Source: Bacteroidota bacterium (GTDB lineage Bacteria; Bacteroidota; Bacteroidia; Chitinophagales; Chitinophagaceae). Taken from it: a stretch of 64,000 nucleotides of DNA. The notes under the pieces were generated by a model. It was not told where the DNA came from. It worked only from the letters and a program-made list of their open reading frames with translations, and did no database searches. The stretch is taken from the NCBI GenBank assembly GCA_030706735.1, contig JAUZNZ010000003.1, forward strand, positions 62,001 through 126,000. Direction: 5' to 3'. The translations under genes and the position numbers were made by a program. Shown in pieces: positions 1-17,244 of this stretch (within the stretch, counting starts at the first letter, position 1; the number at the start of each line of letters is the position of its first letter).

Positions 1-1293
1 GCCCGCGGCGAACAAAGCGCGGAGAACTGGAAAGCCCTCCTGGCAAGACCCTCGATCGACAACGTCGCTCTCGAGCAAAGGGTGGCGGTCATCCTGGATC
101 AGGTCAGGTTGCATGGCGATGCGGCGGTCAAAAAGTTCTCTCTGCAATATGATAAGGTCGCGCCGGACCCGATCGAGGCGAACCGCATGGAAATGGAGGC
201 GGCCGCTGCGGAGATCAGTGACGAATTAAAAACGGCGATCAGCCAGGCCAGGGAAAATATTGAACGCTTTCACCGCCCACAATGGCGGGAACCAGAAGCG
301 GTGGAAACGATGCCGGGTGTCCGCTGCTGGCGCAAGTCGGTGGGGATTGAAAGGGTCGGGCTCTATATCCCCGGCGGGACAGCTCCATTGTTCAGCACCC
401 TGCTGATGCTGGGCATACCCGCCCGTATCGCAGGTTGTCGGGAGGTCGTACTTTGCTCCCCCCCGGATCCGAACGGACGATTGCACCCGGCTATATTGTA
501 TACCGCCGGGCTTGTGGGGGTCACCAGGATATTCAAGGTCGGAGGCGTACAGGCGGTCGGGGCGATGGCATACGGAACCGCGATGATCCCCCGCGTCCAC
601 AAAATATTCGGTCCCGGGAATCAATACGTAACCTGCGCAAAGCAACTGATACAGAAGGATGGCGTAGCCATCGACATGCCTGCCGGTCCCAGTGAACTGG
701 CTGTTTATGCGGACGACCACGCAAATCCCCGGGTCGTGGCGGCAGATCTTCTTTCCCAGGCCGAGCACGGCGCGGATAGTCAGGTCATTCTTGTCAGCCC
801 CTCGGAATTGCTTATCGAAGCGGTGCAAATGGAGATGGCCGGTCAGCTGCCGGACCTTCCGAGGCAGGCCCTGGCCACGGCAGCGCTGGCAAATAGCCGC
901 GCCTTTATCGTCAGGGACGAATGGCAGGCCATGGAGCTGCTGAATGAATACGCCCCGGAGCACCTGATCCTGATCTGCCGGGAGCCCGGCGCTCTGGCAG
1001 AGCGGGTCGTCAATGCCGGATCGGTCTTTCTTGGCGCCTTCTCTCCCGAAAGTGCCGGGGACTATGCCACCGGTACCAACCACGTCCTGCCGACCAGCGG
1101 CTATGCGAAGGCGTACAGCGGAGTGAGTGTGGACAGCTTTGTAAAAAAGATCACCTTCCAGGAATTGACCGAGGAAGGGATCCGGGGAATCGCACAAACC
1201 GTGGAACGGATGGCCAGGGCCGAAGGACTGGATGCGCATGCCAATGCCGTGCGTGTGAGGATGGGCCGGCAGGGCAAGGCTCCGCGGGCCTGA
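1..1293 (+). CDS. hisD: Histidinol dehydrogenase, 5' end outside the window
   Basis: Catalyses the last two NAD-dependent oxidations of histidine synthesis, histidinol to histidine. The frame is open to base 1, and its first residues already read like the family N-terminal region (a Trp, then an LxRP motif), so the start lies upstream; the GTG at 82 is internal. Family residues are visible: the zinc-site Gln and His in SQAEHGADS, the catalytic Glu-His in APEHLI, the Asp in SAGDYATGTNHVLP and the C-terminal zinc His in GLDAHANA. hisC follows after 29 bases, so the two are co-transcribed; hisG is probably just upstream of the window. Confidence 0.97.
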   Translation, partial: ARGEQSAENWKALLARPSIDNVALEQRVAVILDQVRLHGDAAVKKFSLQYDKVAPDPIEANRMEMEAAAAEISDELKTAISQARENIERFHRPQWREPEAVETMPGVRCWRKSVGIERVGLYIPGGTAPLFSTLLMLGIPARIAGCREVVLCSPPDPNGRLHPAILYTAGLVGVTRIFKVGGVQAVGAMAYGTAMIPRVHKIFGPGNQYVTCAKQLIQKDGVAIDMPAGPSELAVYADDHANPRVVAADLLSQAEHGADSQVILVSPSELLIEAVQMEMAGQLPDLPRQALATAALANSRAFIVRDEWQAMELLNEYAPEHLILICREPGALAERVVNAGSVFLGAFSPESAGDYATGTNHVLPTSGYAKAYSGVSVDSFVKKITFQELTEEGIRGIAQTVERMARAEGLDAHANAVRVRMGRQGKAPRA

Positions 1294-1322
1294 TAGAGGA
1301 CGATATTCAATTCAATGATACT

Positions 1323-2387
1323 ATGTTTCAATTAGACAGCCTGTTACGGGACAATATCCGGCGCCTCGTGCCGTATTCCTCGGCCAGGGACGAATTCCAT
1401 GGTTCGGCGCAGATCTTTATTGATGCCAACGAGAACAGCCTGGGTTCTCCGCTTACGCGCTGGTACAACCGGTATCCCGATCCCCACCAGGTAAGGGTAA
1501 AGGAGGCGCTCAGCAAAGTCAAAGGGATTGGCCCGCAACACCTATTCCTGGGCAATGGCAGCGACGAATGCATCGATATCCTGTATCGCGCCTTCTGCAA
1601 CCCGGGAAAGGACAATGTCATCATCAACCCGCCGACCTACGGCATGTACGAGGTCAGTGCGAACATCAACGATGTCGAGGTCAGGCGCGCCGTACTCATG
1701 GATGATTTCCAGCTGGACCTGATCCACCTTGAACGCCTGGTGGACGAAAACAGCAAACTGATCTGGATTTGCAGCCCGAATAATCCGACAGGCAATTCCA
1801 TGAACAGGCAGGATATCGAGATCGTCCTGAACAATTTTCCCGGACTCGTAGTGATCGATGAGGCCTATATTAATTTTTCCCGCCATCGCTCTTTCATTCA
1901 GGAATTGAGCGACTATCCCAATCTCGTCGTCCTGCAGACGATGAGCAAAGCCTGGGGACTCGCCGGCCTTCGTTTAGGGATGGCCTTCGCCAGCGAGGCG
2001 ATCATCGAGGTCTATAATAAGGTCAAGCCCCCATACAATATTAGTCAGGCCACACAGGAACTCGCCCTAAAAGCCCTGGAAGAGACCGAACAGGTGAACG
2101 ACATGATCCGTACCCTCGTCGCCCTGCGCGGAGAGCTGGCCGGTAAGCTGACGCAACTGCCCGTGGTTCGCCAGGTCTTTCCCAGCGACGCTAATTTCCT
2201 ATTGGTCAGGGTCGCGGATGCGGGCGCTGTGTATGCCCACTTGCTGGAGGAGGGTATCGTCGTCCGGGATCGCAGCAAGGTAGAGCGCTGTGCGGGTTGC
2301 CTGCGGATCACGGTCGGCACGGAAAGAGAGAATGACGAACTGATCCGGGCCATGCAAAGACTCGACGCAGATGCCCGGCACGCCTAA
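1323..2387 (+). CDS. hisC: Histidinol-phosphate aminotransferase
   Basis: Transfers the amino group from glutamate to imidazole-acetol phosphate to give histidinol phosphate. It is a PLP-dependent fold-type I enzyme of 354 residues, normal length. The PLP lysine is K209 in the MSKAWGLAGLRLG motif; ICSPNNPTGN and VVIDEAYINF are the usual cofactor-binding segments. The ATG at 1323 gives the expected N-terminus. It follows hisD closely, but the next histidine gene (hisB) is about 2 kb away behind two redox genes, which is unusual. Confidence 0.97.
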   Translation: MFQLDSLLRDNIRRLVPYSSARDEFHGSAQIFIDANENSLGSPLTRWYNRYPDPHQVRVKEALSKVKGIGPQHLFLGNGSDECIDILYRAFCNPGKDNVIINPPTYGMYEVSANINDVEVRRAVLMDDFQLDLIHLERLVDENSKLIWICSPNNPTGNSMNRQDIEIVLNNFPGLVVIDEAYINFSRHRSFIQELSDYPNLVVLQTMSKAWGLAGLRLGMAFASEAIIEVYNKVKPPYNISQATQELALKALEETEQVNDMIRTLVALRGELAGKLTQLPVVRQVFPSDANFLLVRVADAGAVYAHLLEEGIVVRDRSKVERCAGCLRITVGTERENDELIRAMQRLDADARHA

Positions 2388-2424
2388 GGCAAAAATGAGT
2401 GGAGCGGATAAGATCTGGCGAAAG

Positions 2425-2452
2425 ACCGGATTGGCCGGTGAACCCTTTTTTT
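2425..2452 (+). terminator. Weak terminator-like hairpin after hisC
   Basis: A 5-bp stem (ACCGG 2425-2429, CCGGT 2435-2439) is followed six bases later by seven T (2446-2452), within the 94-base gap between hisC and the dehydrogenase gene. It is a short stem and could be leaky or fortuitous. If real, it would separate hisDC from the downstream redox pair. Confidence 0.3.
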
Positions 2453-2481
2453 AAATTAAATTACATTCTTAATTTATCACC

Positions 2482-3825
2482 ATGAGATCGTTATTTTCAT
2501 CAGGAATGAAAGGTTCGACCGTAAAGACGATGCCATACAGGGCTTTGTTCATTGCATTATGCCTGTCCGTGACCGGCCTGCTGGCCTGCGCCGGCGATGG
2601 CGGCAATGGCCCCGGAAAAGGCGGCGGCCCGCAAAAGACTGATCCCGCCGACTCGGGCATCAAGGTTCCATCCGGGTTCAAAGCAACCGTCGTGGCCCAG
2701 TCCCTGGGCAGAACGCGGCATCTGGCCGTCACGGATAATGGGATGATCTATGTCAAGCTGGAAAGATTGAAGGATGGCAAAGGCATCGTCCGTCTGAAGG
2801 ATTCCGGCCATCATGGGACGATGGACGACGTGATGGGCTTTGGCCACTTCGGAGGCACCGGCATGGCGATCCGCGACGGGTACCTCTATGCTTCCTCCGA
2901 CGAGGAGGTCTTCCGCTATAAACTGGATGCGGATGGCAATGTGATCAGCCCCGAACATCCCGAGAAGATCGTTACCGGGTTGCTGCAGCGCGGCGAGCAT
3001 GAGGCGAAAGCCATCACTCTGGACTATGACGGCAACCTGTATGTGAATATCGGGGCATACTCCAATGCCTGCCAGGTGCAGGACCGTACCAAGGGTTCTC
3101 CCGCCATGAATCCGTGCCCGATCCTGGATTCTGCGGGCGGGATATGGAAATTCAAGGCGGGCCAGCCCAACCAAACCTATAAGGACGGGGTACGCTACGC
3201 CACGGGATTGCGGAATGTGGTCGGGCTCGACTGGAACAAGTCCACGAACTCGCTGTTCGTCATGCAACATGGCCGGGACCAATTGAGTGACTTGTTCCCC
3301 CAATACTTTGATACGAAGCAGAGCGCGGAACTGCCCGCAGAATGCATGTATGAATTACACATGGGATCGAATTGCGGCTGGCCCTATATCTATTATGATC
3401 AGATCCAGCATAAGAAAGTGCTGGCTCCCGAATATGGCGGCGATGGAAAAAAGGACGGGGATGCCAAATTCCAGGATCCCGTGGCGGCCTATCCGGGACA
3501 CCTGGCGCCGAATGGTCTGCTGTTCTACACCGGAACGATGTTCCCCGAAAGATATCGCAACGGCGCATTCATCGCTTTCCACGGGTCCTGGAATCGCGCG
3601 CCCGAGCCGCAAAAAGGATATTTTGTGGTTTTCCAACCCTTTAAGGATGGCAAGCCCAGCGGTGCCTGGGAGGTTTTTGCAGACAATTTTTCCGGCAGCC
3701 CCGAACTTACGGCTTCTGGCCGGGCCAGGCATCGTCCATGCGGCCTGGCGCAGGGTCCCGATGGATCGCTCTATGTCACGGACGATTCGAAAGGTACGAT
3801 CTGGAAGATCACGTATAATAAATAG
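2482..3825 (+). CDS. PQQ-type sugar (sorbosone) dehydrogenase-like lipoprotein
   Basis: A secreted beta-propeller protein of the glucose/sorbosone dehydrogenase family, which oxidises sugars or aldoses with a quinone cofactor. The substrate cannot be told from sequence. Residues 20-36 form a lipoprotein signal ending LLAC, so it is probably anchored on the periplasmic side. Blade-like segments recur (GNLYVNIG, ATGLRNVVGLDW, FHGSWNR, GPDGSLYVTDD). The ATG at 2482 is used; the ATG at 2530 would give a shorter, more typical signal peptide. A cytochrome c gene follows after 20 bases and is the natural electron acceptor. The pair interrupts the histidine gene order. Confidence 0.85.
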   Translation: MRSLFSSGMKGSTVKTMPYRALFIALCLSVTGLLACAGDGGNGPGKGGGPQKTDPADSGIKVPSGFKATVVAQSLGRTRHLAVTDNGMIYVKLERLKDGKGIVRLKDSGHHGTMDDVMGFGHFGGTGMAIRDGYLYASSDEEVFRYKLDADGNVISPEHPEKIVTGLLQRGEHEAKAITLDYDGNLYVNIGAYSNACQVQDRTKGSPAMNPCPILDSAGGIWKFKAGQPNQTYKDGVRYATGLRNVVGLDWNKSTNSLFVMQHGRDQLSDLFPQYFDTKQSAELPAECMYELHMGSNCGWPYIYYDQIQHKKVLAPEYGGDGKKDGDAKFQDPVAAYPGHLAPNGLLFYTGTMFPERYRNGAFIAFHGSWNRAPEPQKGYFVVFQPFKDGKPSGAWEVFADNFSGSPELTASGRARHRPCGLAQGPDGSLYVTDDSKGTIWKITYNK

Positions 3826-3845
3826 TAACCTATTTTCCGCAGCGT

Positions 3846-4334
3846 ATGAAGACCTATAGCATGGGGATCCTGTTTTGTGGCGGCTTGATCATCCTTGCCG
3901 CGATGATGATGTCGCAGACGACCAGACCGGCGGCGCCTGCGCGGGCCACGCCCGCCCGGACTGCTCGGACCGGCTCAACCGCCCAGGGCGGATTTGCCGC
4001 ATCGATGGCCAGGGGGAAACAAGTGTACCTCCAACAGTGCCTGGCCTGTCACCAGGCAGATGCCCTGGGCGTGGAGAATATGAATCCCTCACTGGTTAAA
4101 TCCAAATATGTGCTGGGCGATAAGACGGTCCTCGTCCGGATCGTACTGACAGGCATGAAGGGGGTGGAGATCGACGGAGACGCCTATCACAACGTCATGG
4201 CGCCGCATAGCGATCTCACCGACCAGCAAATAGCCGACGTCCTGACCTATGTCCGGAACAGCTTCGGCAATAAGGCGAAGGCCGTCACTGCGGCCGAAGT
4301 AAAGGCGATCCGCGCAAAAACCAAACTGAATTGA
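3846..4334 (+). CDS. Secreted c-type cytochrome, monohaem
   Basis: A single-haem cytochrome c of class I. A hydrophobic N-terminus (residues 8-22) acts as signal or anchor, followed by an Ala/Pro/Thr-rich linker. The haem motif CLACH is at residues 65-69, and the Met in YHNVMAPH is the probable distal ligand. Probably accepts electrons from the dehydrogenase encoded just upstream. Its TGA stop shares one base with the hisB ATG (TGATG), so translation of hisB is likely coupled to it, a surprising link between a periplasmic redox gene and a histidine gene. Confidence 0.9.
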
Positions 4335-5473
4335 TGAAGAGGATCCTATTTATCGACCGCGACGGCACCCTGATCAGGGAAGCGCCTCCGACCTACCAGA
4401 TCGATTCATTCGACAAGCTGGAATTTTATCCCGGCATGTTCGAATACATGGGACGGATCGCCCGCGAATTCGATTATGAATTGCTGATGGTGACCAACCA
4501 GGATGGGTTGGGCAGCGCCTCCTTCCCTGAAGACCATTTCTGGCCGGTGCAAAATTTTGTGATGAAGAGCCTGGAGAATGAAGGTATCCTCTTCCGGGAC
4601 GTATATATCGACCGGAGCTTCCCCGGCGACAATAAGCCGACGCGAAAGCCCGGCACGGGCATGCTGACCGCCTATCTGAACCATGCCGGTTACGACCTTG
4701 CCAATTCCTATGTGATCGGCGACCGTATCACTGACGTACAGCTGGCAAGGAATCTCGGTTGTAAGGCCATCTGGCTGAACAATGACCCTGCATTGGGCAG
4801 CGGGGAACTGGACAAGGGCGGTGAGGGCCTGGACGGGTCCGTGGCGCTGGAGACCACGCAATGGAGCAGCATTTATGAATTCCTGAAACTGGGCCTCCGA
4901 CGCGTCGTCCACGAGCGGAATACCAATGAGACGCAGATCCGGGTTGAGTTGAACGTGGATGGCGACGGGAAGGCGGATATCGCAACGGGCATGGGCTTCT
5001 TCGATCACATGCTGGATCAGATCGCCCGGCATGGCAAAATGGATCTCAGGATACTTGTCCATGGGGACCTGCACATCGACGAACATCATACGATCGAGGA
5101 TACCGGCCTGGCCCTGGGTGAGGCCATTGGCAAGGCCCTCGCCGACAAACGAGGCATGGAACGATATGGGTTCGCCCTGCCCATGGATGAGGCCGATGCC
5201 AAAGTACTGATCGATTTCGGGGGGCGGAACTGGATCGTATGGAATGCCGAATTCAAACGGGAAAAGATCGGTGAGATGCCGACCGAGATGTTCTTCCATT
5301 TCTTCAAATCATTTTCGGACGCGGCCCGCTGCAACCTGAATATCGAATGCCGTGGAGAAAATGAGCACCACAAGATCGAGGCCATTTTCAAGGCCTTCGC
5401 CAGGGCCATCCGTATGGCGGTGAAGCGGGATCCTTTTAGTAATTACCTGCCCAGCACCAAGGGGGTGCTATAG
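4334..5473 (+). CDS. hisB: Bifunctional histidinol-phosphatase / imidazoleglycerol-phosphate dehydratase
   Basis: Carries out two histidine steps: dehydration of imidazoleglycerol phosphate and dephosphorylation of histidinol phosphate. The N-terminal HAD phosphatase has the DxD pair at D8 and D10 (FIDRDGT). The C-terminal dehydratase starts near residue 180 and shows both metal-binding motifs, [16 protein letters not shown] and [16 protein letters not shown]. The ATG at 4334 is chosen over the in-frame TTG at 4331 because it overlaps the preceding stop. It is separated from hisDC by two redox genes and from hisH by about 9 kb. Confidence 0.97.
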
Positions 5474-5474
5474 G

Positions 5475-5557
5475 ATCGGCTATTCAGCCGATATTTACAT
5501 TTATCGGGTATTTAGCCAATATTTTGAAATATCGGTTAATTTGCCGATATTTGGTTC
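5475..5557 (+). repeat. Three 28-bp-spaced operator-like repeats before satD
   Basis: Starting two bases after the hisB stop, the motif ATCGGnTAnTTnnGCC(G/A)ATATTT occurs three times, with its ATCGG beginning at 5475, 5503 and 5531, exactly 28 bp apart. Copy 1 contains a 7-bp inverted repeat (ATCGGCT-4-AGCCGAT). Copy 3 lies in a perfect 9-bp inverted repeat, AAATATCGG (5527-5535), 8-base spacer, CCGATATTT (5544-5552). Copy 2 is more degenerate. These look like binding sites for a dimeric repressor, most simply the helix-turn-helix of the adjacent SatD-like protein. Confidence 0.75.
5523..5553 (+). promoter_or_regulatory. Likely satD promoter overlapping operator copy 3
   Basis: A -33 TTTG (5523-5526) lies 19 bases before GATATTTG (5546-5553), one base off the Bacteroidota TAnnTTTG box. 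The third palindrome (5527-5552) occupies exactly the interval between the two boxes, the ideal position for repression. The box ends four bases before the ATG at 5558, so the transcript would be nearly leaderless. Confidence 0.5.
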
Positions 5558-6199
5558 ATGACCAGCGTCATGACCAGCGTGATCACCGGCGACATCATGA
5601 ATTCCAGGGGGGCAGCCAACCAGGGGGAATGGCTGACGCCTATCAAAAAAGTATTCGCGATCTACGGAAAAACGCCAAAGACCTGGGAGATCTATCGGGG
5701 TGATAGTTTCCAGCTGGAGGTCAAAGAACCGCCCGATTCTCTCCTGGCCGCCATACGCATCAAGGCATGCATCAAATCGATCAGAGAGGAGGAATTGGAC
5801 GTACGGATGGCGATCGGCATCGGATCCAGGAATTACAGCGCCGCCAGGATCACGGAATCGAACGGGGAAGCATTCATCCATTCCGGTGAAAAATTCGAAA
5901 CCCTGAAAAAAATGAAGAAAAGTCTGGCCATTAAGTCCCCCTGGCCCGCGATCGATACCGAACTGAACCTGATGATCAGCCTGGCATCCATCGCAATGGA
6001 TAAATGGAGCCCGTCCTCCGCTGAATTGGTAGCCTTGTCCCTGAAGAACAAAGAGTTCTCCCAAAAGGAACTGGGACACAAATTGGGCAGGACGCAATCC
6101 TCCATCAGCGAAAGACAGAAAAGGGCGCTATACGATGAAATAATGGAGTTGGAGCACTATTACAGAAACAAAATGGAGCAACAGCTCAAAAAGATATGA
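5558..6199 (+). CDS. SatD-family protein with C-terminal helix-turn-helix
   Basis: 213 residues. The N-terminal VITGDIMNSRG motif is typical of the SatD family, named from a streptococcal secretion/acid-tolerance locus; its biochemical role is not known to me. Residues about 165-200 (FSQKELGHKLGRTQSSISERQ) read as a helix-turn-helix, so it may be a DNA-binding autoregulator. The first 12 bases are duplicated (ATGACCAGCGT twice), so the start could be 5558 or 5570; neither has a clear ribosome binding site. Its stop overlaps the next gene by 4 bases (ATGA), indicating a conserved pair with the DUF3307 membrane protein. Confidence 0.8.
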   Translation: MTSVMTSVITGDIMNSRGAANQGEWLTPIKKVFAIYGKTPKTWEIYRGDSFQLEVKEPPDSLLAAIRIKACIKSIREEELDVRMAIGIGSRNYSAARITESNGEAFIHSGEKFETLKKMKKSLAIKSPWPAIDTELNLMISLASIAMDKWSPSSAELVALSLKNKEFSQKELGHKLGRTQSSISERQKRALYDEIMELEHYYRNKMEQQLKKI

Positions 6200-6936
6200 T
6201 CTTGCTCATTCAGCTTTTCCTGGCCCATATCCTGGGCGATTTTTTTCTGCAGCCCGATAAATGGGTCAGGGAAAAAACGCAAAAGAGGCTCCGGTCGATC
6301 TACCTCTATATACACGTCGTGATCCATTTCCTATTGATCCTGCTCGTCACGGGAGATACCGGCCTCTGGAAAATAGCCCTGCTGATCTCCCTGTCGCACC
6401 TGGTCATAGATGGGATAAAGCTGTTGGCGCAGAAGGAAGGCGAATCCCGGGCCTGGTTCTTTGCGGACCAGCTATTGCATCTGGCAGTACTCCTGACGGT
6501 ATGGATCGTTCAGGACAAGGTCGTCGTGGATCTTCACGCCCTCTGGAACAGAACCAACCTGATCCTGATCACGGCGGTCCTGTTCCTATTGAATCCGGCC
6601 TCCATCATCATCAAAACGGTCATCTCAAAGTGGACGCCCGGCGCGCCCGGCGGCAACGAACATCCGACAGGCGCGACCGCGAACATATACAGATCGTTGG
6701 AAAATGCGGGCCAGCTCATCGGGATGATCGAAAGAGTGTTGGTGCTGATCTTTATCTTTGTCGGAAGATGGGAAGGCGTGGGCTTCCTCCTTGCCGCCAA
6801 GTCCGTGTTCCGGTTCGGCGATCTGAAGGACGCCCGGGATACCAAGCTTACGGAATATGTCCTGATCGGCACCCTGCTGAGCTTCGGCATGGCGGTCATA
6901 ACAAGCCTTCTGGCGGTAACTTTATGGAGAACATAG
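6196..6936 (+). CDS. DUF3307 integral membrane protein
   Basis: 246 residues with several membrane segments: N-terminal LIQLFLAHILGDFFLQP, two more within about 35-75, then segments near 95-112, 120-140, 175-195 and at the C-terminus. The opening AHILGDFFLQPDKW and SHLVIDGIKLL are DUF3307 signatures. Function is unknown. Its start overlaps the SatD stop (ATGA) and its stop overlaps the kinase start by 13 bases, so three proteins are translationally linked. SatD may sense or control this membrane protein; that is inference from context. Confidence 0.8.
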   Translation: MILLIQLFLAHILGDFFLQPDKWVREKTQKRLRSIYLYIHVVIHFLLILLVTGDTGLWKIALLISLSHLVIDGIKLLAQKEGESRAWFFADQLLHLAVLLTVWIVQDKVVVDLHALWNRTNLILITAVLFLLNPASIIIKTVISKWTPGAPGGNEHPTGATANIYRSLENAGQLIGMIERVLVLIFIFVGRWEGVGFLLAAKSVFRFGDLKDARDTKLTEYVLIGTLLSFGMAVITSLLAVTLWRT

Positions 6937-7871
6937 ATCATTTGACGGACAAGACTTACGATATCTGCTGCATAGGGCATATCACCCTGGATAAAGTGGT
7001 CACTCCGCTGGCGGTCAAGCACATGCCGGGAGGAACGTCCGTCTACTTCTCCAATGCCATCCGGAACATGGACCTGAGCTATCTCCTGGTCACGGCCCTT
7101 GGACAGGACGACATGCAGATCGTCGATGACCTGCGCGATAAGGGGATCGATGTGCAGACACTGCCAAGCGCCCATACGGTCTGTTTCGAGAACATCTATA
7201 CCGGGAACCTGGACCATCGCACGCAGCGCGTGACCCGGCAGGCGGATCCTTTCACGGCCGGTCAGTTGCAGCCGATAAAGGCGAAGGTCTTTCACCTGGG
7301 GCCGCTCCTCGCCGGCGATATCCCCCTGGAATCGATCAGGGCGCTATCGGTGAAAGGCATCGTATCCCTCGATGTGCAGGGCTATCTCCGCAAAGTGAAG
7401 GATGAGCAGGTCTGCGCCGTTGATTGGCCTGCGAAAAGGGAAGCCCTCGCCTGCGTGGATATCCTCAAAGCCAATGAATCCGAAATGCACGTGCTGACGG
7501 GATATAAGGAGGTGCGCAAATCGGCAAAGCTTCTCGCCTCATGGGGGGTGAAGGAAGTAGTGATCACCCTGGGCAGTAAGGGTTCGGTGATCCTGCACGA
7601 TGACCGCTTACATACCATCCCCGCCTATACGCCGGAAACAAATAAGGATACGACAGGATGTGGTGATACCTATATGGCCGGCTACCTGTACAAGCGCATC
7701 AGGGGAGCGGGCATTCAGGAGGCCGGCGAATTCGCCGCGGCGATGGCCACGCTCAAGATCGGCTCGATGGGGCCGTTTACCGGCACATCCGAAGACGTCC
7801 TTAGGCTGCTGGGAGAAAGGAAAAAAAATTTGGCGAAGTCATTTTTCCGCTTCATATTTGCGATGCAATGA
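6924..7871 (+). CDS. PfkB-family carbohydrate/nucleoside kinase
   Basis: 315 residues, ribokinase-like fold. The N-terminal GHITLDKV and GGTSVYFSNAI match the substrate-binding region, and DTTGCGDTYMAGYLYKR near the C-terminus is the PfkB signature with the catalytic Asp. Substrate cannot be assigned. The ATG at 6924 begins a normal N-terminus; the longer open frame from 6261 is antisense-like read-through over DUF3307. Its last bases contain the promoter and start codon of the trp leader peptide (ATGA overlap at 7868-7871). Confidence 0.85.
   Translation: MENIDHLTDKTYDICCIGHITLDKVVTPLAVKHMPGGTSVYFSNAIRNMDLSYLLVTALGQDDMQIVDDLRDKGIDVQTLPSAHTVCFENIYTGNLDHRTQRVTRQADPFTAGQLQPIKAKVFHLGPLLAGDIPLESIRALSVKGIVSLDVQGYLRKVKDEQVCAVDWPAKREALACVDILKANESEMHVLTGYKEVRKSAKLLASWGVKEVVITLGSKGSVILHDDRLHTIPAYTPETNKDTTGCGDTYMAGYLYKRIRGAGIQEAGEFAAAMATLKIGSMGPFTGTSEDVLRLLGERKKNLAKSFFRFIFAMQ
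7829..7860 (+). promoter_or_regulatory. Promoter of the trp operon
   Basis: TTTG (7829-7832) and CATATTTG (7853-7860) are 20 bases apart, one base off the Bacteroidota consensus TTG-N19-21-TAnnTTTG. The elements lie inside the 3' end of the kinase gene. Transcription would begin about 5-7 bases downstream, within two or three bases of the leader-peptide ATG. Confidence 0.55.
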
Positions 7872-7930
7872 AACATGAATTGATCAATAAACTGTGGTGG
7901 TGGCATGCGAACTCCGTGCGGGGCAAGTAA
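7868..7930 (+). CDS. trpL: trp leader peptide with three consecutive Trp codons
   Basis: A 20-codon ORF whose codons 10-12 (7895-7903) are TGG TGG TGG, the hallmark of ribosome-mediated attenuation. Its ATG overlaps the stop of the preceding kinase gene. It lies immediately upstream of an intrinsic terminator and trpE. A ribosome stalled at the Trp codons would cover the 5' part of a 1:2 hairpin (GCATG 7903-7907 with CGTGC 7915-7919), freeing CGGGGC (7919-7924) to act as antiterminator. Such leaders are best described in Proteobacteria. Confidence 0.85.
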   Translation: MKHELINKLWWWHANSVRGK

Positions 7931-7957
7931 TGCTATTACTATTGTATTACCATATTG

Positions 7958-7986
7958 GGCCCCGACTTGTCGGGGCCTTTTCTTTT
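7958..7986 (+). terminator. trp attenuator terminator
   Basis: A perfect 9-bp stem, GGCCCCGAC (7958-7966) and GTCGGGGCC (7969-7977), followed by TTTTCTTTT. Its 5' arm contains GCCCCG (7959-7964), exactly complementary to CGGGGC (7919-7924) just after the Trp codons, giving the alternative antiterminator. It lies 44 bases before trpE. Confidence 0.85.
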
Positions 7987-8029
7987 GGCCCCGGTGAACG
8001 GGTCCGGGCGCAAAATCTAAGAACAAGCC

Positions 8030-9436
8030 ATGAAAAAAATTGAGATCAGGACGACCTGCAAGCGGCTCCTTTCGGATGTATATACGCCCGTAGGCATCTA
8101 CCTGCGCCTTCGGGACCGATTTCGCGATACCATCCTGATGGAAAGTACGGATTATCATGTGGCGGAAAACAGCTATTCATTCATTTGTATCAATGCCATC
8201 GCCGGCATCGAGATCAGCGATACGAAGAACATCGAATTCAAACTACCCGGCCAGGTCCCTGAAAAGGCGGCCGTGCGGAATTCCTCCGATGTGCCCCGCC
8301 TGATGTGGGAATTCATGCAACGGTTCAATGTCCCGCCTGCGGATGAAAAACCGGTAAGGGCGGTGCAGGGATTGTTCGGCTACACCACCTTCGACGCCGT
8401 GCAGTTTTTCGATTCCGTCCGGTTCCGCGATCGCGGAACCCCCATTCCGCTCATGCGCTATCGCCTGTACCAGTACGTGATCGCCATCAACCATTTCAAA
8501 GACGAATTATATATCTGCGAAAACCAGGTCGCAGGGCTTGAAAGCGAACTATCGGTGGTGGAATCCCTGATCAGGAGCAAGGACGTGCCTGCCTATCCAT
8601 TCCGGATGAAGGGTGAGGAGACCTCCAACCTGAAGGACGAGGAATATATCGCGATGGTCGGGAAAGGGATCCAAAGCTGCTATCGCGGCGACGTATTCCA
8701 GATCGTCCTGAGCCGCTGCTTCCGGCAACATTTTACAGGAGACGAGTTCAACGTCTATCGCGCATTGCGAAGCATCAACCCCTCTCCGTACCTGTTCTTC
8801 TTCGATTACGGAGATTATAAGCTGATGGGTTCGTCGCCGGAATCTCAGCTGATCATCCGTAACGGGAAGGTGATCGTACACCCCATCGCCGGCACATTCA
8901 GGAGGACGGGCGACGAGGAGACGGATCAGCAAATGGCCGAAAAACTCCTGAAGGACGCCAAGGAGAATGCCGAACACGTCATGCTCGTTGACCTCGCGAG
9001 GAACGACCTGAGCCGGCTCTGCGATGAGGTGACCGTTACGCACTACCGCCAGGTGCAATATTATTCCCATGTCATTCACCTGGTGAGTGAAGTCAGCGGC
9101 AAGATGCGCGAAGGATCCAACCCCTTCGACCTGCTCGCGACCACCTTTCCGGCAGGAACACTGAGCGGCGCTCCGAAATTCAAGGCCATGGAGCTGATCG
9201 ATGCCTATGAGCCCACGCCAAGGAGTTATTATGGCGGATGTATCGGTTTCGTAGGGTTCGATGGCAGTTGCAACCAGGCCATTATGATACGCAGCTTGCT
9301 GAGCCGGAGCAATACCCTGATCTACCAGGCGGGAGCGGGCGTGGTGGCGGCCAGTAAACCGGAGAGCGAACTGCAGGAGGTGAACAATAAACTCGGCGCG
9401 CTGAAGAAGGCCATTCAATTTGCAGAAGAGATCTAA
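8030..9436 (+). CDS. trpE: Anthranilate synthase component I
   Basis: Converts chorismate to anthranilate, first step of tryptophan synthesis, using ammonia from TrpG. 468 residues. LMES at 36-39 matches the LLES tryptophan feedback-binding motif, so allosteric inhibition is probably kept. Chorismate-binding segments include SSPESQLI, IAGTFRRTGD, VDLARNDL and TLSGAPKFKAME. Its ATG (8030) follows the attenuator; trpG follows after 9 bases. Confidence 0.97.
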   Translation: MKKIEIRTTCKRLLSDVYTPVGIYLRLRDRFRDTILMESTDYHVAENSYSFICINAIAGIEISDTKNIEFKLPGQVPEKAAVRNSSDVPRLMWEFMQRFNVPPADEKPVRAVQGLFGYTTFDAVQFFDSVRFRDRGTPIPLMRYRLYQYVIAINHFKDELYICENQVAGLESELSVVESLIRSKDVPAYPFRMKGEETSNLKDEEYIAMVGKGIQSCYRGDVFQIVLSRCFRQHFTGDEFNVYRALRSINPSPYLFFFDYGDYKLMGSSPESQLIIRNGKVIVHPIAGTFRRTGDEETDQQMAEKLLKDAKENAEHVMLVDLARNDLSRLCDEVTVTHYRQVQYYSHVIHLVSEVSGKMREGSNPFDLLATTFPAGTLSGAPKFKAMELIDAYEPTPRSYYGGCIGFVGFDGSCNQAIMIRSLLSRSNTLIYQAGAGVVAASKPESELQEVNNKLGALKKAIQFAEEI

Positions 9437-9445
9437 ACTGATATT

Positions 9446-10021
9446 ATGACCCGGATCCTTGTTTTCGACAACTACGATTCTTTTACCTACAACCTGGTAC
9501 ACCTGGTGGAGAAGTTGCTGCACCAGAAAGTGGAAGTGCACCGGAATGACCAACTGCCACTGGAAAAAGTGAAGGAATTCGACAAGATCATCCTGTCGCC
9601 CGGGCCCGGCATTCCTTCGGAGGCCGGTTTACTTCTGCCCCTCATCAGGGAATATGCCGCATCAAAACCGATCCTGGGCGTATGTCTCGGGCACCAGGCA
9701 ATCGGGGAGGTATTCGGCGCCACCCTGGTGAACCTGAGTACCGTCTACCACGGCGTGGCAACGCCGATCCGCATCCTGGGAGCGCGTAGTCCCTTATTCG
9801 AAGGCCTGCCCTCCTCCTTCGAGGCCGGACGTTATCATAGCTGGGTGGTGAGCGAAGAACGGTTCCCGGATCAGGAACTGGAAGTGACCGCTAGGGATGA
9901 GAACGGCTATATCATGGGGCTGCAGCATAAACGGTTCGACGTGCAGGGAGTCCAGTTCCATCCGGAGAGCGTCCTGACGCCCGAAGGCGACCGGATCATG
10001 CGCAATTGGCTAAATCAATGA
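9446..10021 (+). CDS. trpG: Anthranilate synthase component II, glutamine amidotransferase
   Basis: 191 residues, class I amidotransferase that supplies ammonia to TrpE. The nucleophile is C80 in GVCLGHQAIGE; the His and Glu of the triad are in GVQFHPESV; the oxyanion loop is SPGPG (51-55). It is a stand-alone subunit, not fused to TrpD. Its stop overlaps a trpD ATG (ATGA). Confidence 0.97.
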   Translation: MTRILVFDNYDSFTYNLVHLVEKLLHQKVEVHRNDQLPLEKVKEFDKIILSPGPGIPSEAGLLLPLIREYAASKPILGVCLGHQAIGEVFGATLVNLSTVYHGVATPIRILGARSPLFEGLPSSFEAGRYHSWVVSEERFPDQELEVTARDENGYIMGLQHKRFDVQGVQFHPESVLTPEGDRIMRNWLNQ

Positions 10022-11019
10022 CTGTCATGAAAAAAATACTGCAATACCTGTTCGAACATAAGACCCTGTCCAGGCAGCAGGCGCGGGAGATCCTGGTGAA
10101 CATTTCCCAGGGCGCCTGCAACGATAGCGAGATTGCCGCCTTCATCACCGTCTTTCTGATGCGCAGCATTACGATCGGGGAGCTGCAGGGTTTCCGCGAC
10201 GCACTGTTGGAGCTGTGTGTCCGGGTGGACCTGAATGGCTATGAGGCGATCGACATCGTCGGAACGGGCGGGGACGGCAAGAATACGTTCAATATCTCCA
10301 CACTCGCCTGTTTCATCGTGGCGGGTACCGGACAGAAAGTCTCGAAGCATGGCAACTATGGCGCCTCTTCGATCTCGGGCGCTTCGAACGTCATGGAGCA
10401 ATTGGGATATAAATTCAAGAACGATACGGTCAGGTTGCGGCAGGAAGTGGAGACGGCTAATATTTGCTTCCTGCATGCGCCCATATTCCACCCGGCACTG
10501 AAAACGGTGGGAGGGATACGCAAGAACCTAGGCGTGCGGACCTTCTTTAATATGCTGGGGCCGATGGTCAATCCCTCTTTCCCGAAATTCCAGCTGGTTG
10601 GCGTATACAACCTGGAGATGGCAAGGGTCTATAATTACCTCCTTCAACAAACGGAAGGGCGGTTCATGATCATTCATAGCCTGGACGGCTACGATGAAAT
10701 TTCGCTGACGGGCGACGCCAAGGTCATTACGAACTCGGGAGAGAAAGTAATGACGCCGGAACAACTGGGCAAGCGGGCCGTTCAGGCCGCGGACATCTAT
10801 GGCGGAAATACGGTAGAGGAAGCAGTAAAAATATTCGTGAAAATATTGAAAGGGGAGGGCAGCTGGGCGCAAAATGCGGTAGTACTCGCCAATGCAGCCC
10901 TGGCCCTCTGGTCCACAGACAACTATGCCCGGTATGATGATGCCTATGCGGCGGCGGTGGACAGCCTGGAGAGCGGAAGGGCGTATGGAGCGCTGCAGAA
11001 ATTGATCACCTTGCAATAA
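10018..11019 (+). CDS. trpD: Anthranilate phosphoribosyltransferase
   Basis: Joins anthranilate to phosphoribosyl pyrophosphate. The PRPP loop GTGGDGKNTFNIST and the KHGNYGASSISGASNVME segment are clear. The ATG at 10018 overlaps the trpG stop; an ATG three codons later (10027) gives the commoner N-terminus MKKILQYLFEHK, so either may be used. Length 333 or 330 residues, normal for the family. Confidence 0.96.
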   Translation: MTVMKKILQYLFEHKTLSRQQAREILVNISQGACNDSEIAAFITVFLMRSITIGELQGFRDALLELCVRVDLNGYEAIDIVGTGGDGKNTFNISTLACFIVAGTGQKVSKHGNYGASSISGASNVMEQLGYKFKNDTVRLRQEVETANICFLHAPIFHPALKTVGGIRKNLGVRTFFNMLGPMVNPSFPKFQLVGVYNLEMARVYNYLLQQTEGRFMIIHSLDGYDEISLTGDAKVITNSGEKVMTPEQLGKRAVQAADIYGGNTVEEAVKIFVKILKGEGSWAQNAVVLANAALALWSTDNYARYDDAYAAAVDSLESGRAYGALQKLITLQ

Positions 11020-11039
11020 GAATGCTTTACGATTAGACC

Positions 11040-11834
11040 ATGAATATCCTCGATACGATAGTCGAATATAAAAGAACGGAGGTCCGGAAGAACAGGTCGG
11101 CCAAGCCAATGGCTGAGCTCGAAAAGAGCGGCTGGTTCGCAAGGCAAACCTTGTCCCTTCGGGAGTCGCTGACCGATCCGGCCGGAACAGGCATTATCGC
11201 CGAGTTCAAACGTCGCTCGCCGTCCAGGGGAGTGATCAATGACCGCTCAGACGTCGTGGACGTGACAACGGCCTATACCGCGCATGGAGCGGCCTGCCTG
11301 TCGGTACTGACTGACGAAAACTTCTTCGGCGGCCATCGCACAGACCTCGAAAAGGCAAGGGTGAACGCGATCCCGATCCTGCGCAAGGATTTTATGGTCG
11401 ACGAATACCAGGTCCTGGAGGCCAGGGCAATGGGGGCCGACGTGATCCTCCTGATCGCAGCCTGTCTCAGTCCCGGCGAGACCAGGAGACTGGCTCTCTT
11501 TGCCCGCTCCCTGGGGCTGGAGGTATTGCTGGAGATCTATTCGGAGCAGGAGTTGGGGCATATCTCCGATGAGACGGATATTGTCGGCGTGAATAACCGC
11601 GATCTAAGGACCTTTACGGTCGATACGGACCGTTCGATCGCCTTGCGCGAAAAGATCCCGGCGGGCAAGTTGGCGATTTCGGAGAGCGGTATCAGCCATG
11701 CGGGAACGATCAGGCGTCTGCGGCAAGCCGGGTTCAGCGGATTCCTCATCGGAGAGAACTTCATGAAAGAGGCCGATCCCGGGGCTGCATTTGGTAAATT
11801 TGTGGCTGAACTAAAGAACGGGGACAGTTTATGA
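11040..11834 (+). CDS. trpC: Indole-3-glycerol-phosphate synthase
   Basis: Closes the indole ring from the carboxyphenylamino-deoxyribulose phosphate. 264 residues, (beta-alpha)8 barrel. Visible motifs: EFKRRSPSRGVI with the catalytic Lys, PILRKDFMVDEYQV, VGVNNRDLRTF and ISESGI. Not fused to TrpF; its stop overlaps the trpF start by 4 bases. Confidence 0.97.
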   Translation: MNILDTIVEYKRTEVRKNRSAKPMAELEKSGWFARQTLSLRESLTDPAGTGIIAEFKRRSPSRGVINDRSDVVDVTTAYTAHGAACLSVLTDENFFGGHRTDLEKARVNAIPILRKDFMVDEYQVLEARAMGADVILLIAACLSPGETRRLALFARSLGLEVLLEIYSEQELGHISDETDIVGVNNRDLRTFTVDTDRSIALREKIPAGKLAISESGISHAGTIRRLRQAGFSGFLIGENFMKEADPGAAFGKFVAELKNGDSL

Positions 11835-12472
11835 GAATAAAGGTCTGCGGCATGACGGAAATCGAGCAGCTCAGGCAGCTGGACGCCATGGGAGTGGATT
11901 TTGCCGGATTTATCTTCTATCCGAAATCTCCGCGCTACGTGGTGAGGCACCTGTCTGGCGAAGAATTGAAGAAGGCCCGCCTGAGACTCGGCAAGGTAGG
12001 CGTTTTCGTGAACGCTCAATACGACGAGGTCATGCGTCAGGTGGACAGCTATGGGTTGGACATGATACAACTGCATGGAGACGAGACGCCCCGTTTTTGC
12101 GAGCAACTGGCCAATTATATAACGGTCATCAAGGTATTCCGCCTGGGCGATAATGATCCGATCGATTGGATCGTCCGCCCTTATCAGGATTCCTGCGACA
12201 TGCTGATGTTCGATACGGAAGGCGCCGGTTATGGCGGAACAGGAAAAAAATTCAATTGGGACCTGCTAAAGCCCGCACGCATCGACAAGTTGTACTTCCT
12301 GAGCGGAGGGATCGAGCCGGGGGATGCGGAAAAGTTGAGGTCATTTGCCCGTGAACCCGCGGCCGCCAAGCTCTTCTCGATCGATATCAATAGCAAGTTC
12401 GAGGTGACGGCGGGCGTGAAGGACCTGAAAAAGATCAGGTCGATGATCGATGAACTCAAACGAAATCAGTAA
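11831..12472 (+). CDS. trpF: Phosphoribosylanthranilate isomerase
   Basis: Amadori isomerisation of phosphoribosylanthranilate. 213 residues. The N-terminal KVCGMTE carries the catalytic Cys; the catalytic Asp is in MLMFDTEGAGYGGTGKKFNW; FLSGGI binds phosphate. Overlaps trpC (ATGA) and precedes trpB by 9 bases. Confidence 0.96.
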   Translation: MRIKVCGMTEIEQLRQLDAMGVDFAGFIFYPKSPRYVVRHLSGEELKKARLRLGKVGVFVNAQYDEVMRQVDSYGLDMIQLHGDETPRFCEQLANYITVIKVFRLGDNDPIDWIVRPYQDSCDMLMFDTEGAGYGGTGKKFNWDLLKPARIDKLYFLSGGIEPGDAEKLRSFAREPAAAKLFSIDINSKFEVTAGVKDLKKIRSMIDELKRNQ

Positions 12473-12481
12473 GACAAGGTT

Positions 12482-13717
12482 ATGTCAGCAATAAATGATA
12501 GTAAAACAAGCGCCGGGACGCAGAAGCCAAGCTTCCGGACTCCGGACGCCCAGGGTTATTATGGAAAGTTTGGAGGCGCCTATATTCCCGAAATGCTCCA
12601 TCGCAACGTGGAAGAACTGCGCACCCGATACCTGGAGATCATGCATTCCCCCGCATTTAAGAAGGAATATCAAAACCTGCTGAGGGATTATGTCGGCAGG
12701 CCGACACCCCTCTATCTGGCGCGGCGATTGAGCGCGCAATACCACACGGAGATCTTCCTGAAACGCGAGGACCTGTGTCATACCGGCGCGCATAAGGTCA
12801 ACAACACCGTAGGGCAGATCCTGCTGGCGGAGCGGTTGGGAAAGCGACGGATCATCGCGGAAACGGGCGCCGGCCAGCATGGAGTGGCCACCGCCACCGT
12901 TTGTGCATTGAAAGGACTGGAATGCATCGTATTCATGGGCGAAAAGGATATCGCGCGTCAGGCTCCCAACGTGGCCAGGATGAAGATGCTTGGCGCAAAA
13001 GTGATACCTGCCACCAGCGGCAGCAAGACCCTGAAGGACGCGACGAATGAGGCGATCCGGGACTGGATCAATAATCCGAACGACACGCATTATATAATCG
13101 GCAGCGTGGTGGGTCCGCATCCTTATCCCGATATGGTGGCCCGCTTTCAGAGCGTGATCAGTGAAGAGATCCGCACGCAATTGAAAAGGGAGACCGGGGA
13201 AGAACTGCCCACCCATGTGATCGCCTGCGTGGGGGGCGGCAGCAATGCCGCGGGTGCGTTTTACCATTTCCTCGACGAGGAGAGCGTGGAACTGATCGCC
13301 GTGGAGGCCGCCGGCCATGGGCTGACCAGCGGAATGAGCGCCGCCACGACGCAACTGGGCAGGCCGGGCGTATTGCATGGCAGCAAGAGCCTGGTCATGC
13401 AGACCGCTGACGGCCAGGTCGTGGAGCCGCACAGTATTTCCGCGGGCCTGGACTACCCCGGCATCGGACCCCTGCACGCCCATCTGTACGAGAGCGGCCG
13501 GGCCACCTTCCTCAACGCCACGGACGAAGAGGCCCTCCGGGCCGCATTCGGGCTCGCCAAGCTGGAAGGGATCATCCCCGCTCTGGAGTCTGCACACGCA
13601 CTGGCCGCCCTCGATCAACTTTCCCTCAATGAAAAGGACCGGGTTGTCATTTGCCTGAGCGGGCGTGGCGACAAGGACCTGGCGACCTATATGCACGCCA
13701 TGGAGGGTGGGTTATGA
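12482..13717 (+). CDS. trpB: Tryptophan synthase beta chain
   Basis: Condenses indole and serine to tryptophan with PLP. 411 residues. [13 protein letters not shown] carries the PLP lysine; [10 protein letters not shown] is the phosphate loop; AETGAGQHG is the conserved substrate loop. It has a short N-terminal extension before the usual [11 protein letters not shown] start. Its stop overlaps the trpA ATG (13714). A 403-codon open frame on the opposite strand is only a codon-usage shadow. Confidence 0.97.
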
Positions 13718-14487
13718 GCAGGATAAACAAACTCTTCGAAAGTAAGAATAAAGAAGTGCTGAATATGTATTGCACCGCCGGCTACCCGCGGCTGGACAGC
13801 ACCCTGGAAATAATGGCCGCCTTGCAAGAGGGCGGCGCCGATCTCATAGAACTGGGGATGCCGTATAGCGACCCGCTGGCTGACGGGCCGGTCATTCAGG
13901 CCAGCGGCACAAAGGCCCTGGAAAACGGAATGACCCTCGCAAAGCTTTTTGAACAGCTTGAAAAAATGCGGCCCGCGATCAGGATACCGGTATTGCTCAT
14001 GGGCTATATGAACCCCGTCCTGCAATATGGCTTTGAAAAATTCTGCGCCGACGCGGCGGCGGCCGGGGTCGACGGATTGATCCTGCCCGACCTGCCCATG
14101 TATGAGTTCGAGACCGAATATGGCGCGCTCATCCGCAGGCATGGATTAGACTTTGTCTTCCTCGTGACGCCGGAAACGTCCGACGAACGGGTGCGCAGGG
14201 TCGATGCGCTGAGCAGCGGCTTCCTGTATGCCGTCAGCTCTTCATCGACGACGGGGAAGGACAAAAATATGGGCGATCAGCAGGCTTATTTCAAGAGACT
14301 GCAAGGGTTGGGCCTGAAGAATCCTGTGCTGGTCGGTTTCGGGATCAGGGACAGGCAGACCTTTCTGGATGCCTGCCGCCATACGAACGGAGTGATCATC
14401 GGAACGGCCTATATCAAAGCGCTGGACGCCGGGCCGGATATCGCCGCGGCCACACGCACATTCATTCACTCGATCACTCGAAAATAG
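13714..14487 (+). CDS. trpA: Tryptophan synthase alpha chain
   Basis: Cleaves indole-3-glycerol phosphate to indole, which is channelled to TrpB. 257 residues. [19 protein letters not shown] carries the catalytic Glu and Asp. The ATG at 13714 overlaps the trpB stop; the open frame further upstream is not protein-like. hisH begins 21 bases after its stop, with no terminator or promoter visible, so trp transcripts may run into histidine genes. Confidence 0.97.
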
Positions 14488-14508
14488 CTCGCAAAAGCGG
14501 ATCGTAAT

Positions 14509-15105
14509 ATGGAATTAGTCATTGTAAAATATAACGCAGGCAACATCCAGTCGGTACTCTATGCGCTGGAGCGGATCGGATTGCAGGGCTGCGTGACGGA
14601 CGATGCTGAATTGATCCGGAAGGCGGATAAAGTGATCTTTCCCGGCGTCGGCGAGGCAAGTACGGCCATGGGCTACCTCAAGGAACGGGGCCTTGACCGC
14701 TTGATCCGGGATCTGCGACAGCCGGTGCTGGGCATTTGCCTGGGCATGCAGCTGATGTGCCGGTACAGCGAGGAAAATGACACGGATTGCCTGGGCATCT
14801 TCGATGCAGAGGTGAAGAAATTCACGCCTTCCGAAGCCGGTTGCAAAGTGCCGCAGATCGGATGGAATACCATTTATGCGCTCAAGACCGGCCTGTTCGA
14901 CGGGGTGCCGGAAAACAGCTACTGTTATTTTGTTCACGGGTACTACGCCGCCGCGGGGGACGATACGATCGCGACGACCGATTACGTCCAGCCCTATAGT
15001 TCGGCCTTGCATAAGGGGAATTTTTACGGCGTTCAATTCCACCCGGAAAAATCGGCGCAGACAGGGGAAAGGATCTTAAGGAATTTCATAACCGGCATCG
15101 AATAA
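14509..15105 (+). CDS. hisH: Imidazole glycerol phosphate synthase, glutamine amidotransferase subunit
   Basis: Supplies ammonia to HisF. 198 residues. Nucleophile C77 in GICLGMQLM; His and Glu in GVQFHPEKS; FPGVGEAS is the oxyanion region. Four bases separate it from hisA. Its partner hisF is two genes downstream, on the far side of hisA and a LysE exporter gene. Confidence 0.97.
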   Translation: MELVIVKYNAGNIQSVLYALERIGLQGCVTDDAELIRKADKVIFPGVGEASTAMGYLKERGLDRLIRDLRQPVLGICLGMQLMCRYSEENDTDCLGIFDAEVKKFTPSEAGCKVPQIGWNTIYALKTGLFDGVPENSYCYFVHGYYAAAGDDTIATTDYVQPYSSALHKGNFYGVQFHPEKSAQTGERILRNFITGIE

Positions 15106-15109
15106 CACC

Positions 15110-15841
15110 ATGGAGATCATACCGGCCATCGACATCATTGACGGGAAATGCGTTCGCCTGACGCAAGGCGATTATTCGCAAAAAAAAGTATATAACGAGC
15201 GTCCGTTGGAGGTCGCCGCGGCTTTTGAGGATGCCGGCCTGAAAAGATTGCACCTCGTCGACCTGGACGGGGCAAAAGCGGGAACGGTACGCAACTGGAA
15301 AGTATTGGAAACGATCGCCGGCCGCACCGGTCTTGTCATCGATTTCGGAGGCGGCATCAAGACGGCCGCCGACGTCGATATCGTATTCAATTCAGGAGCC
15401 GCGCTGGCGACGGTGGGAAGCGTCGCCGTAAAAGACGCGGAACTGTTCGTCGGCTGGCTCAAGACCTATGGCGCTGCAAGGTTCCTGCTGGGAGCTGACG
15501 TCAGGGAGGAAAAGATAGCCATTGCCGGCTGGCAGGAGACGACCGACCGGTGGATCTATGACTTCATCCGGGAATATATGGAAAAGGGCATTGAGCAGGT
15601 ATTCTGTACCGACGTTAGCAAAGATGGTCTGATGCAGGGTCCTTCGCTTGACCTGTACCGCGATATCATCGCCGAATTCCCGGGCCTGCATTTTATTGCC
15701 AGTGGGGGGGTAAGCAGTATGGAGGATCTGGATTCTCTGCAGAAGATCGGTTGCAGCGGCGCAATTATCGGAAAGGCCATCTATGAGGGACGGATTGCAC
15801 TCGACGATTTAACAACCTTTGGATTAAACTATAAACGATGA
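15110..15841 (+). CDS. hisA: ProFAR isomerase (HisA)
   Basis: Isomerises the ribosylamino imidazole-carboxamide intermediate of histidine synthesis. 243 residues, two-fold symmetric barrel: catalytic Asp near the N-terminus in PAIDIIDGKCVRL and the second in TDVSKDGLMQG. IASGGVSS is a phosphate site. Its TGA overlaps the ATG of the LysE gene by 4 bases. Confidence 0.97.
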   Translation: MEIIPAIDIIDGKCVRLTQGDYSQKKVYNERPLEVAAAFEDAGLKRLHLVDLDGAKAGTVRNWKVLETIAGRTGLVIDFGGGIKTAADVDIVFNSGAALATVGSVAVKDAELFVGWLKTYGAARFLLGADVREEKIAIAGWQETTDRWIYDFIREYMEKGIEQVFCTDVSKDGLMQGPSLDLYRDIIAEFPGLHFIASGGVSSMEDLDSLQKIGCSGAIIGKAIYEGRIALDDLTTFGLNYKR

Positions 15842-16467: not shown

Positions 16468-16471
16468 GAAC

Positions 16472-17230: not shown

Positions 17231-17244
17231 ATTAATTTGACAGC

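Follow-up and report, generated by a model that had tools for sequence, protein, structure and literature searches.

Introduction

The leader of the E. coli trp operon, whose attenuator we take to be the one represented by the Rfam family Trp_leader (RF00513), carries two consecutive Trp codons. Amino-acid regulation in Bacteroidia is little described; candidates in Bacteroidetes/Chlorobi are reportedly mentioned in the abstract of the study by Vitreschak et al. (2004) on attenuation in proteobacteria. In Sinorhizobium meliloti (rnTrpL/peTrpL), the RNA of the trp attenuator is described as beginning with the leader ATG itself (PMC7298713). A transcriptome of Flavobacterium psychrophilum published in 2021 reports 'strong clues' that leader peptides attenuate amino-acid operons (PMC9723704); pheA and hisG are named among its conserved 5' elements, and the word 'tryptophan' is absent from the main text as available. 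His operons interrupted by trp genes are reported from Thermoflavifilum thermophilum and Filimonas lacunae (PMC8305728), in an article whose available text lacks the word 'leader', holds a single 'attenuat', concerning enterobacterial his, and mentions no attenuator for the composite operons. No description of a trp attenuator in Bacteroidetes/Bacteroidota was found in the open-access literature. An earlier, sequence-only reading of the locus presented here had called the E. coli-type mechanism less documented outside Proteobacteria; this is fair for Bacteroidota, but it has to be narrowed in view of the Flavobacterium clues and of the experimental cases that PMC4833913 gives for Actinobacteria. 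Here we describe a leader before trpE that, judged from its sequence and from its relatives, is very probably a ribosome-mediated transcription attenuator of the E. coli trp kind.

Genomic setting and anatomy of the leader

The window (the whole stretch of 64,000 nucleotides that was analysed) contains hisD, hisC, a sorbosone-dehydrogenase-like gene, a cytochrome c gene, hisB, a SatD-like gene (score slightly below the Pfam cut-off), a DUF3307 gene and a pfkB-type kinase gene, in this order, followed by trpE, trpG, trpD, trpC, trpF, trpB, trpA, hisH, hisA, a LysE-type gene, hisF and hisIE. The putative attenuator lies between the kinase gene and trpE, at the his/trp seam of this composite cluster. 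The genes needed for the argument are:

Just upstream of the window: hisG, in the adjoining stretch L032
6921–7871, + strand: pfkB-family kinase gene (Pfam), whose 3' end holds the trp promoter and overlaps the leader ATG
8030–9436, + strand: trpE, the predicted first regulated gene (Pfam Anth_synt_I_N and Chorismate_bind)
9446–14487, + strand: trpG, trpD, trpC, trpF, trpB and trpA (NCBIfam)
14509–17841, + strand: hisH, hisA, LysE-type gene, hisF and hisIE, the distal his genes 3' of the attenuator (NCBIfam, Pfam; order in relatives)

The insertion of trpEGDCFBA between hisB and hisH (window positions 82–17841) recurs in the genus (Puia, Chitinophagaceae) and in part of the family. The sorbosone-dehydrogenase-like and cytochrome c genes lie between hisC and hisB (2482–4334), and the former is present in 17 of 20 genus stretches.

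The elements of the leader region are:

7829–7832, + strand: –33 box TTTG of a Bacteroidota-type promoter (direct reading)
7853–7860, + strand: –7 box CATATTTG (consensus TAnnTTTG), 20 nt after the –33 box
7865–7867, + strand: predicted 5' UTR, GCA (from the F. psychrophilum box position)
7868–7930, + strand: trp leader ORF MKHELINKLWWWHANSVRGK (direct reading; ORF comparison with relatives)
7895–7903, + strand: three consecutive Trp codons TGG TGG TGG, presumed stall site (direct reading)
7894–7906, + strand: segment 1, forming a 13-bp 1:2 stem with 7930–7942 in untranslated RNA (folding, consensus structure)
7912–7923, + strand: tip hairpin CUCC-GUGC-GGGG, which sequesters segment 2 (folding, consensus structure)
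7919–7933, + strand: segment 2, forming the antiterminator by pairing of 7919–7924 with 7959–7964 and of 7927–7933 with 7944–7950
7944–7964, + strand: segment 3, with the parts 7944–7950 and 7959–7964
7957–7986, + strand: intrinsic terminator of 9 bp with a loop of 4 (7957–7965 paired with 7970–7978), then TTTCTTTT

The ORF comprises 20 codons (7868–7927) followed by TAA (7928–7930), and its ATG overlaps the TGA (7869–7871) of the upstream kinase gene, so that both the ORF with its three Trp codons and its start inside the kinase gene are as the sequence-only reading had described them. Throughout the window, WWW occurs in 1 of 541 ATG-started frames of 8–50 codons on the + strand, namely the trp leader, and in 0 of 567 on the – strand; no such frame arose in 20 mononucleotide shuffles of the + strand. 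Between the terminator and trpE a second GC-rich stretch (7987–8009, GGCCCCGG...GGGTCCGGGC) might, by eye, form an imperfect hairpin.

The two promoter-like boxes noticed earlier fit the Bacteroidota consensus TTTG / TAnnTTTG (PMC7366714) except for a C in place of the first T of the –7 box. A sigma70-type promoter before the leader was also considered and discarded as the wrong promoter type, the corresponding scan having given no match at the trp leader. Seven nucleotides separate the –7 box from the leader ATG at 7868. The –7 box of F. psychrophilum occupies positions –12 to –5 (PMC9723704), and this position, applied here, places the predicted transcription start at 7865 and leaves GCA as the 5' UTR. 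The trp leader RNA is thus predicted to be near-leaderless, with a 5' UTR of about 3 nt, the spacing in the genus predicting 2–3 nt. A near-leaderless start, raised as a possibility in the sequence-only reading, is in keeping with the relatives: the NANNTTTG box lies 6–7 nt 5' of the leader ATG in 26 of the 28 genus leaders scored (L014 was not scorable). TTGG is found at the –33 place in 26 of 29 genus stretches; it is absent from L013, a locus without the conserved promoter, and stretches L014 and L016 end short of the site. Among trpE-anchored leaders the distance is 4–7 nt in 9 of 11 from the family and, in 50 further ones, 1–10 nt in 29 and 16–21 nt in 7, with no box in 14; all these distances, those of the genus included, run from the best-scoring box to whichever in-frame ATG comes next and are therefore biased to short values. 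So short a 5' UTR is unusual for the phylum, lengths below 10 nt making up about 3.7% in B. thetaiotaomicron (PMC7366714) and leaderless mRNAs 5.5% in F. psychrophilum (PMC9723704).

RNA structures and the proposed switch

The 141-nt leader folds 2.9 standard deviations better than its dinucleotide shuffles. Its untranslated form carries the tip pairing CUCC:GGGG (7912–7915 with 7920–7923) on top of the 1:2 stem 7894–7906:7930–7942. The short 1:2 hairpin of the sequence-only reading therefore corresponds to the tip, which is present, but the whole structure is larger, its 13-bp stem containing the Trp codons. Likewise, the antiterminator proposed between 7919–7924 and 7959–7964 is a perfect 6-bp helix but incomplete, a second, nested 7-bp stem being formed by 7927–7933 and 7944–7950. 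The 9-bp terminator (7957–7978), with trpE behind it at 8030, is present as that reading had described it. The leader thus combines mutually exclusive pairings with this sequence anatomy. A leader ORF, a trp operon behind it, a terminator, an antiterminator exclusive with it and a stop codon suitably placed are all found here, as an attenuator would have them.

The mechanism that these elements suggest is the following. RNA polymerase would start about 3 nt before the leader ATG, as the box geometry indicates; with such a start a ribosome could load as soon as the RNA emerges, and there would be no room for a Shine-Dalgarno site. With ample Trp-tRNA the ribosome would reach the TAA at 7928–7930 and cover segment 2, whereupon the terminator 7957–7978 would form and transcription would stop. 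When Trp-tRNA is scarce it would stall at 7895–7903 and block the 1:2 stem, leaving segment 2 (7919–7933) to pair with segment 3 (7944–7964) before the 3' arm of the terminator is complete; transcription would then continue into trpEGDCFBA. Untranslated RNA would adopt the 1:2 structure together with the terminator once the latter is complete. A near-leaderless leader ORF would bear on how ribosome and polymerase are synchronised without a Shine-Dalgarno site.

We modelled this switch by folding the window leader at successive 3' ends, with assumed lengths for the ribosome footprint. As long as the 3' arm of the terminator is incomplete, a ribosome at any of the Trp codons gives an antiterminator probability of 0.99–1.00, whereas with a ribosome at the stop codon this probability is 0 and the terminator forms. 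Without a ribosome the antiterminator stands at 0.73–0.79 until the terminator is complete, and at 0 afterwards, so that in the model the 1:2 structure is no firm exclusion of the antiterminator; in 14 of 29 genus leaders the early antiterminator probability of untranslated RNA reaches 0.5 or more. Once the terminator is complete, the equilibrium of the window leader favours termination in every state, the stalled one included, and the terminator also wins in most rows when full leaders are folded with a stalled ribosome. The switch would consequently have to be kinetic, by kinetic trapping of the antiterminator. The early antiterminator is of limited specificity, as 271 of 580 shuffled segment-2 windows reach 0.9 or more (a looser count) versus 28 of 29 observed. 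With an assumed footprint of +15 from the P site, a ribosome at the stop codon masks segment 2 in 29 of 29 genus leaders and one stalled at the Trp codons does not.

Conservation within the genus

A search for trpE in 33 genomes of the genus returned a close trpE in 29; the remaining four (58–87% complete) gave weak trpE matches only. A WWWH leader ORF precedes trpE at 29/29 of these loci, and the combined pattern of box, ATG and WWW matches 27 of them, the exceptions being L016, with a longer leader, and L013, without the conserved promoter. The leader of L016 (genome G010) has expanded to about 45 codons, with a KDKM repeat ahead of the Trp codons, and keeps its promoter. Across 24 aligned genus leaders TGG TGG TGG, CAT and TAA are invariant, and the synonymous choice is frozen in segment 2 and the hairpin (CAT in 24/24, CGG in 22/24, GGC in 23/24), which points to selection on the RNA.

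A search for covariation among the genus leaders detected none. Swapping segments between them gave no signal (1277 of 2000 permutations were as good as the own pairing), because the segments are nearly invariant. In L025 all three partners have changed together, with CGAGGC as segment 2, GCCTCG as segment 3 and CGAGGC as segment 4. A covariance model built from the 24 genus leaders, that of the window included, was run on 24 of the 69 loci of other genera described below and matched 16 of them with E no higher than 0.01; the his leader stretch L032 gave no match.

Conservation beyond the genus

The search for trpE was extended to 392 genomes of the phylum, with a match in 326; 69 loci outside the genus were retained, namely the 29 best-scoring and 40 picked by hand among the matches listed. 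Of 13 sampled family genomes outside the genus 11 had a trpE match, and all 11 loci carry an ATG-started short ORF with WW, in each case WWW. Two groups of class and order loci show a WW leader in 18/18 and 25/30 cases (WWW in 14 and 22), and trpE loci of other classes in 7/10 (WWW in 6). Beyond the family WW or WWW is thus present at 50 of 58 trpE loci, and among all 69 a WW leader was not found at 8. By way of control, WW occurred in 0 of 14 windows upstream of hisG (14 of 28 rows), and in 2000 random windows from 20 trp-bearing loci, from which the trp leaders had not been removed, WW was counted 103 times and WWW 24 times.

A scan of genome contigs for the fixed promoter spacing followed by WWW gave at least 119 stretches, 119 of which were examined; in a first batch of 80, trpE lay downstream in 50. 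Since the pattern fixes both spacing and WWW, these hits were not used as evidence for either. Thirteen of the stretches were left out as copies of genus loci, and 29 more for other reasons: 26 had no trp gene in the stretch, and three (L083, L115, L124) were set aside by judgement despite their trp genes. Some excluded stretches, such as L066 and L098, resemble real leaders at a stretch end. In seven Pedobacter loci (L042, L045, L056, L078, L088, L091, L106) a WWW leader with the same promoter stands before a trpD match and not before trpE.

The combined set of 167 leaders comprises 29 from the genus, 77 of the pattern stretches and 61 of the 69 trpE-anchored loci. A terminator follows the leader in 155 of them. 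The pairing of segment 2 with the 5' arm of the terminator is as good as or better than at least 95 of 100 shuffles in 98 of these 155 (genus 21/28, pattern set 49/71, trpE-anchored set 28/56), a statistic that, like the swap tests below, ignores kinship among leaders; in the other 57, notably many class-set rows outside the family, it falls outside the best 5%. Four loci are counted twice (L040/L155, L047/L213, L071/L214, L141/L157), and without the repeats the figures become 151/163 for terminators and 96/151 for the pairing; L042/L118 and L050/L063 have identical leader cores within the pattern set. In the pattern set (n=71, Chitinophagaceae for the most part), in the trpE-anchored set (n=56) and in the part of the latter outside the family (n=46), swapped segments 2 never paired as well as the own ones (0 of 2000 permutations in each). 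By these comparisons the pairing between segments 2 and 3 has been maintained through sequence change outside the genus.

The sequence-only reading had proposed to look in relatives for conservation of the leader ORF and the stems and for compensatory stem changes. The first is evident from the WWW leaders of genus and family and from the terminators of the combined set, and the second from the swap tests outside the genus, with no signal inside it; the absence of conservation that would have refuted that reading was not observed. Its central claim, classical attenuation of the E. coli type, is well supported by the conserved Trp codons, the promoter spacing, the terminator and the 2:3 pairing, and remains our preferred reading. 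The mechanism as such is already known; the attenuator would be a new, widely kept member of its class, with a predicted near-leaderless start and a position at the seam of a composite operon.

Alternative explanations

The leader could work as an attenuator and yet serve mainly as an insulator, stopping transcription from the his promoter before it enters the trp genes. This is improbable on present evidence, although the gene order fits it: of 20 genus loci, 19 have hisB on the same strand ahead of the trp genes, and in 7 of the 20 it directly precedes the leader (stop 43–73 nt from the leader ATG). Untranslated RNA with a full terminator also folds to the terminator. Insulation, however, would not require that Trp codons and an antiterminator be kept, and outside the family the leader persists at 9 loci examined where no upstream his genes were found.

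Action of the leader peptide or of the terminated RNA in trans as well, like that of S. meliloti peTrpL, seems more unlikely still. As such a role would lead one to expect, genus leaders share not just the Trp codons but also the peptide tail HTNSxRG; this tail is, however, explained by segment 2 and the hairpin with their frozen synonymous codons, and other families have different ones. The sensing of Trp by a T-box, a TRAP-like protein or a riboswitch, the ORF being secondary, is very unlikely. The terminator/antiterminator pair taken alone would be compatible with it, but Rfam gives no family at its gathering score anywhere in the window and yields, with the limit relaxed to E 10, neither T-box nor Trp_leader but sub-threshold matches alone, among them Phe_leader (17.1 bits, cut-off 55), and what has been conserved is a frame with consecutive Trp codons whose end lies over segment 2. 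Finally, the idea that the hairpin merely terminates the upstream his-kinase transcript and that the WWW ORF is a chance frame, though it suits a site at the end of a gene block where the leader ATG overlaps the kinase stop, can hardly be sustained against a WWW ORF that is unique in its window, accompanied by a promoter box at fixed spacing and present at every genus locus while the distance to hisB varies from 43 nt to more than 6 kb.

Position within a composite his-trp-his operon

The preferred reading, a Trp-responsive attenuator before trpE, raises the matter of the genes behind trpA. Of 20 genus loci, 19 have hisH behind trpA in the same orientation, and the twentieth reaches the contig end before trpA; within the stretches covered the same arrangement is found in at least 7 of 11 family loci and in 0 of 9 outside the family, one of which has hisIE at that place. 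The 500 nt in front of hisH hold a strict –7 box in 1 of 19 relatives and none in the window, and a relaxed two-box promoter is likewise absent from the window and present in 2 of 19; the latter scan recovers the trp promoter, while weak promoters would be missed by these scans. A single relaxed –7 box occurs before hisH in 17 of 19 relatives, with 25 boxes in total and none in the window; the 25 exceed the number in mononucleotide shuffles but are not far above that in codon shuffles (18.8), and all lie in trpA codons. The trpA–hisH interval shows no terminator-like or sigma70-like site on its + strand. With neither a promoter nor a terminator found before hisH, hisHAFI appear to depend on transcription past the trp attenuator.

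A His leader, MNSQRQHHHQHFFLPQG, with a terminator-like hairpin of its own stands before hisG (L032 4980–5100, upstream of the window). A His-rich leader is present at 27 of 28 genus hisG loci examined (of 30), and TAnnTTTG lies 7–13 nt before the ATG of the His leader at 21 of the 28. We put forward, tentatively, that the trp attenuator might also gate hisH, hisA, hisF and hisIE while the first half of the his pathway is under the His leader before hisG, giving a composite operon with two attenuators throughout the genus, in which the trp leader might also be translated by internal or coupled initiation (ATGA overlap) on his transcripts that read through. Should this hold, the second half of histidine biosynthesis would answer to Trp-tRNA and the first half to the His leader. 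The his-trp-his operon is a naturally occurring case in which control across pathways by a single attenuator can be tested.

The same contig carries a Phe leader, MNNTRAYRFFSFYYFYFTSRPGMLLLRSN, with a terminator-like hairpin before a prephenate dehydratase gene (L291 1279–1420) and a TAAATTTG box 10 nt upstream. A look for Ilv leaders ahead of two ILVD_EDD-family genes gave one weak candidate.

Comparison with known systems

The composite gene cluster of the window is of the same kind as those of T. thermophilum and F. lacunae (PMC8305728). The attenuation suggested for F. psychrophilum comes from the same phylum as the window; the elements named there include those of pheA and hisG, whereas the one described here belongs to trp. 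Relative to rnTrpL of S. meliloti, the present leader differs in phylum and in leader sequence, and about 3 nt are predicted before its ATG; action in trans has been reported for S. meliloti peTrpL. With the E. coli trp attenuator it shares an ORF with Trp codons, the 1:2, 2:3 and 3:4 pairings and an intrinsic terminator before trpE. Unlike E. coli, it has three Trp codons, a Bacteroidota promoter and a predicted near-leaderless start, and the Rfam Trp_leader family neither matches it at gathering score nor is listed for it at E up to 10. Classical attenuation of trp genes, for which E. coli is the textbook case, is thereby indicated to be widely kept in Bacteroidia.
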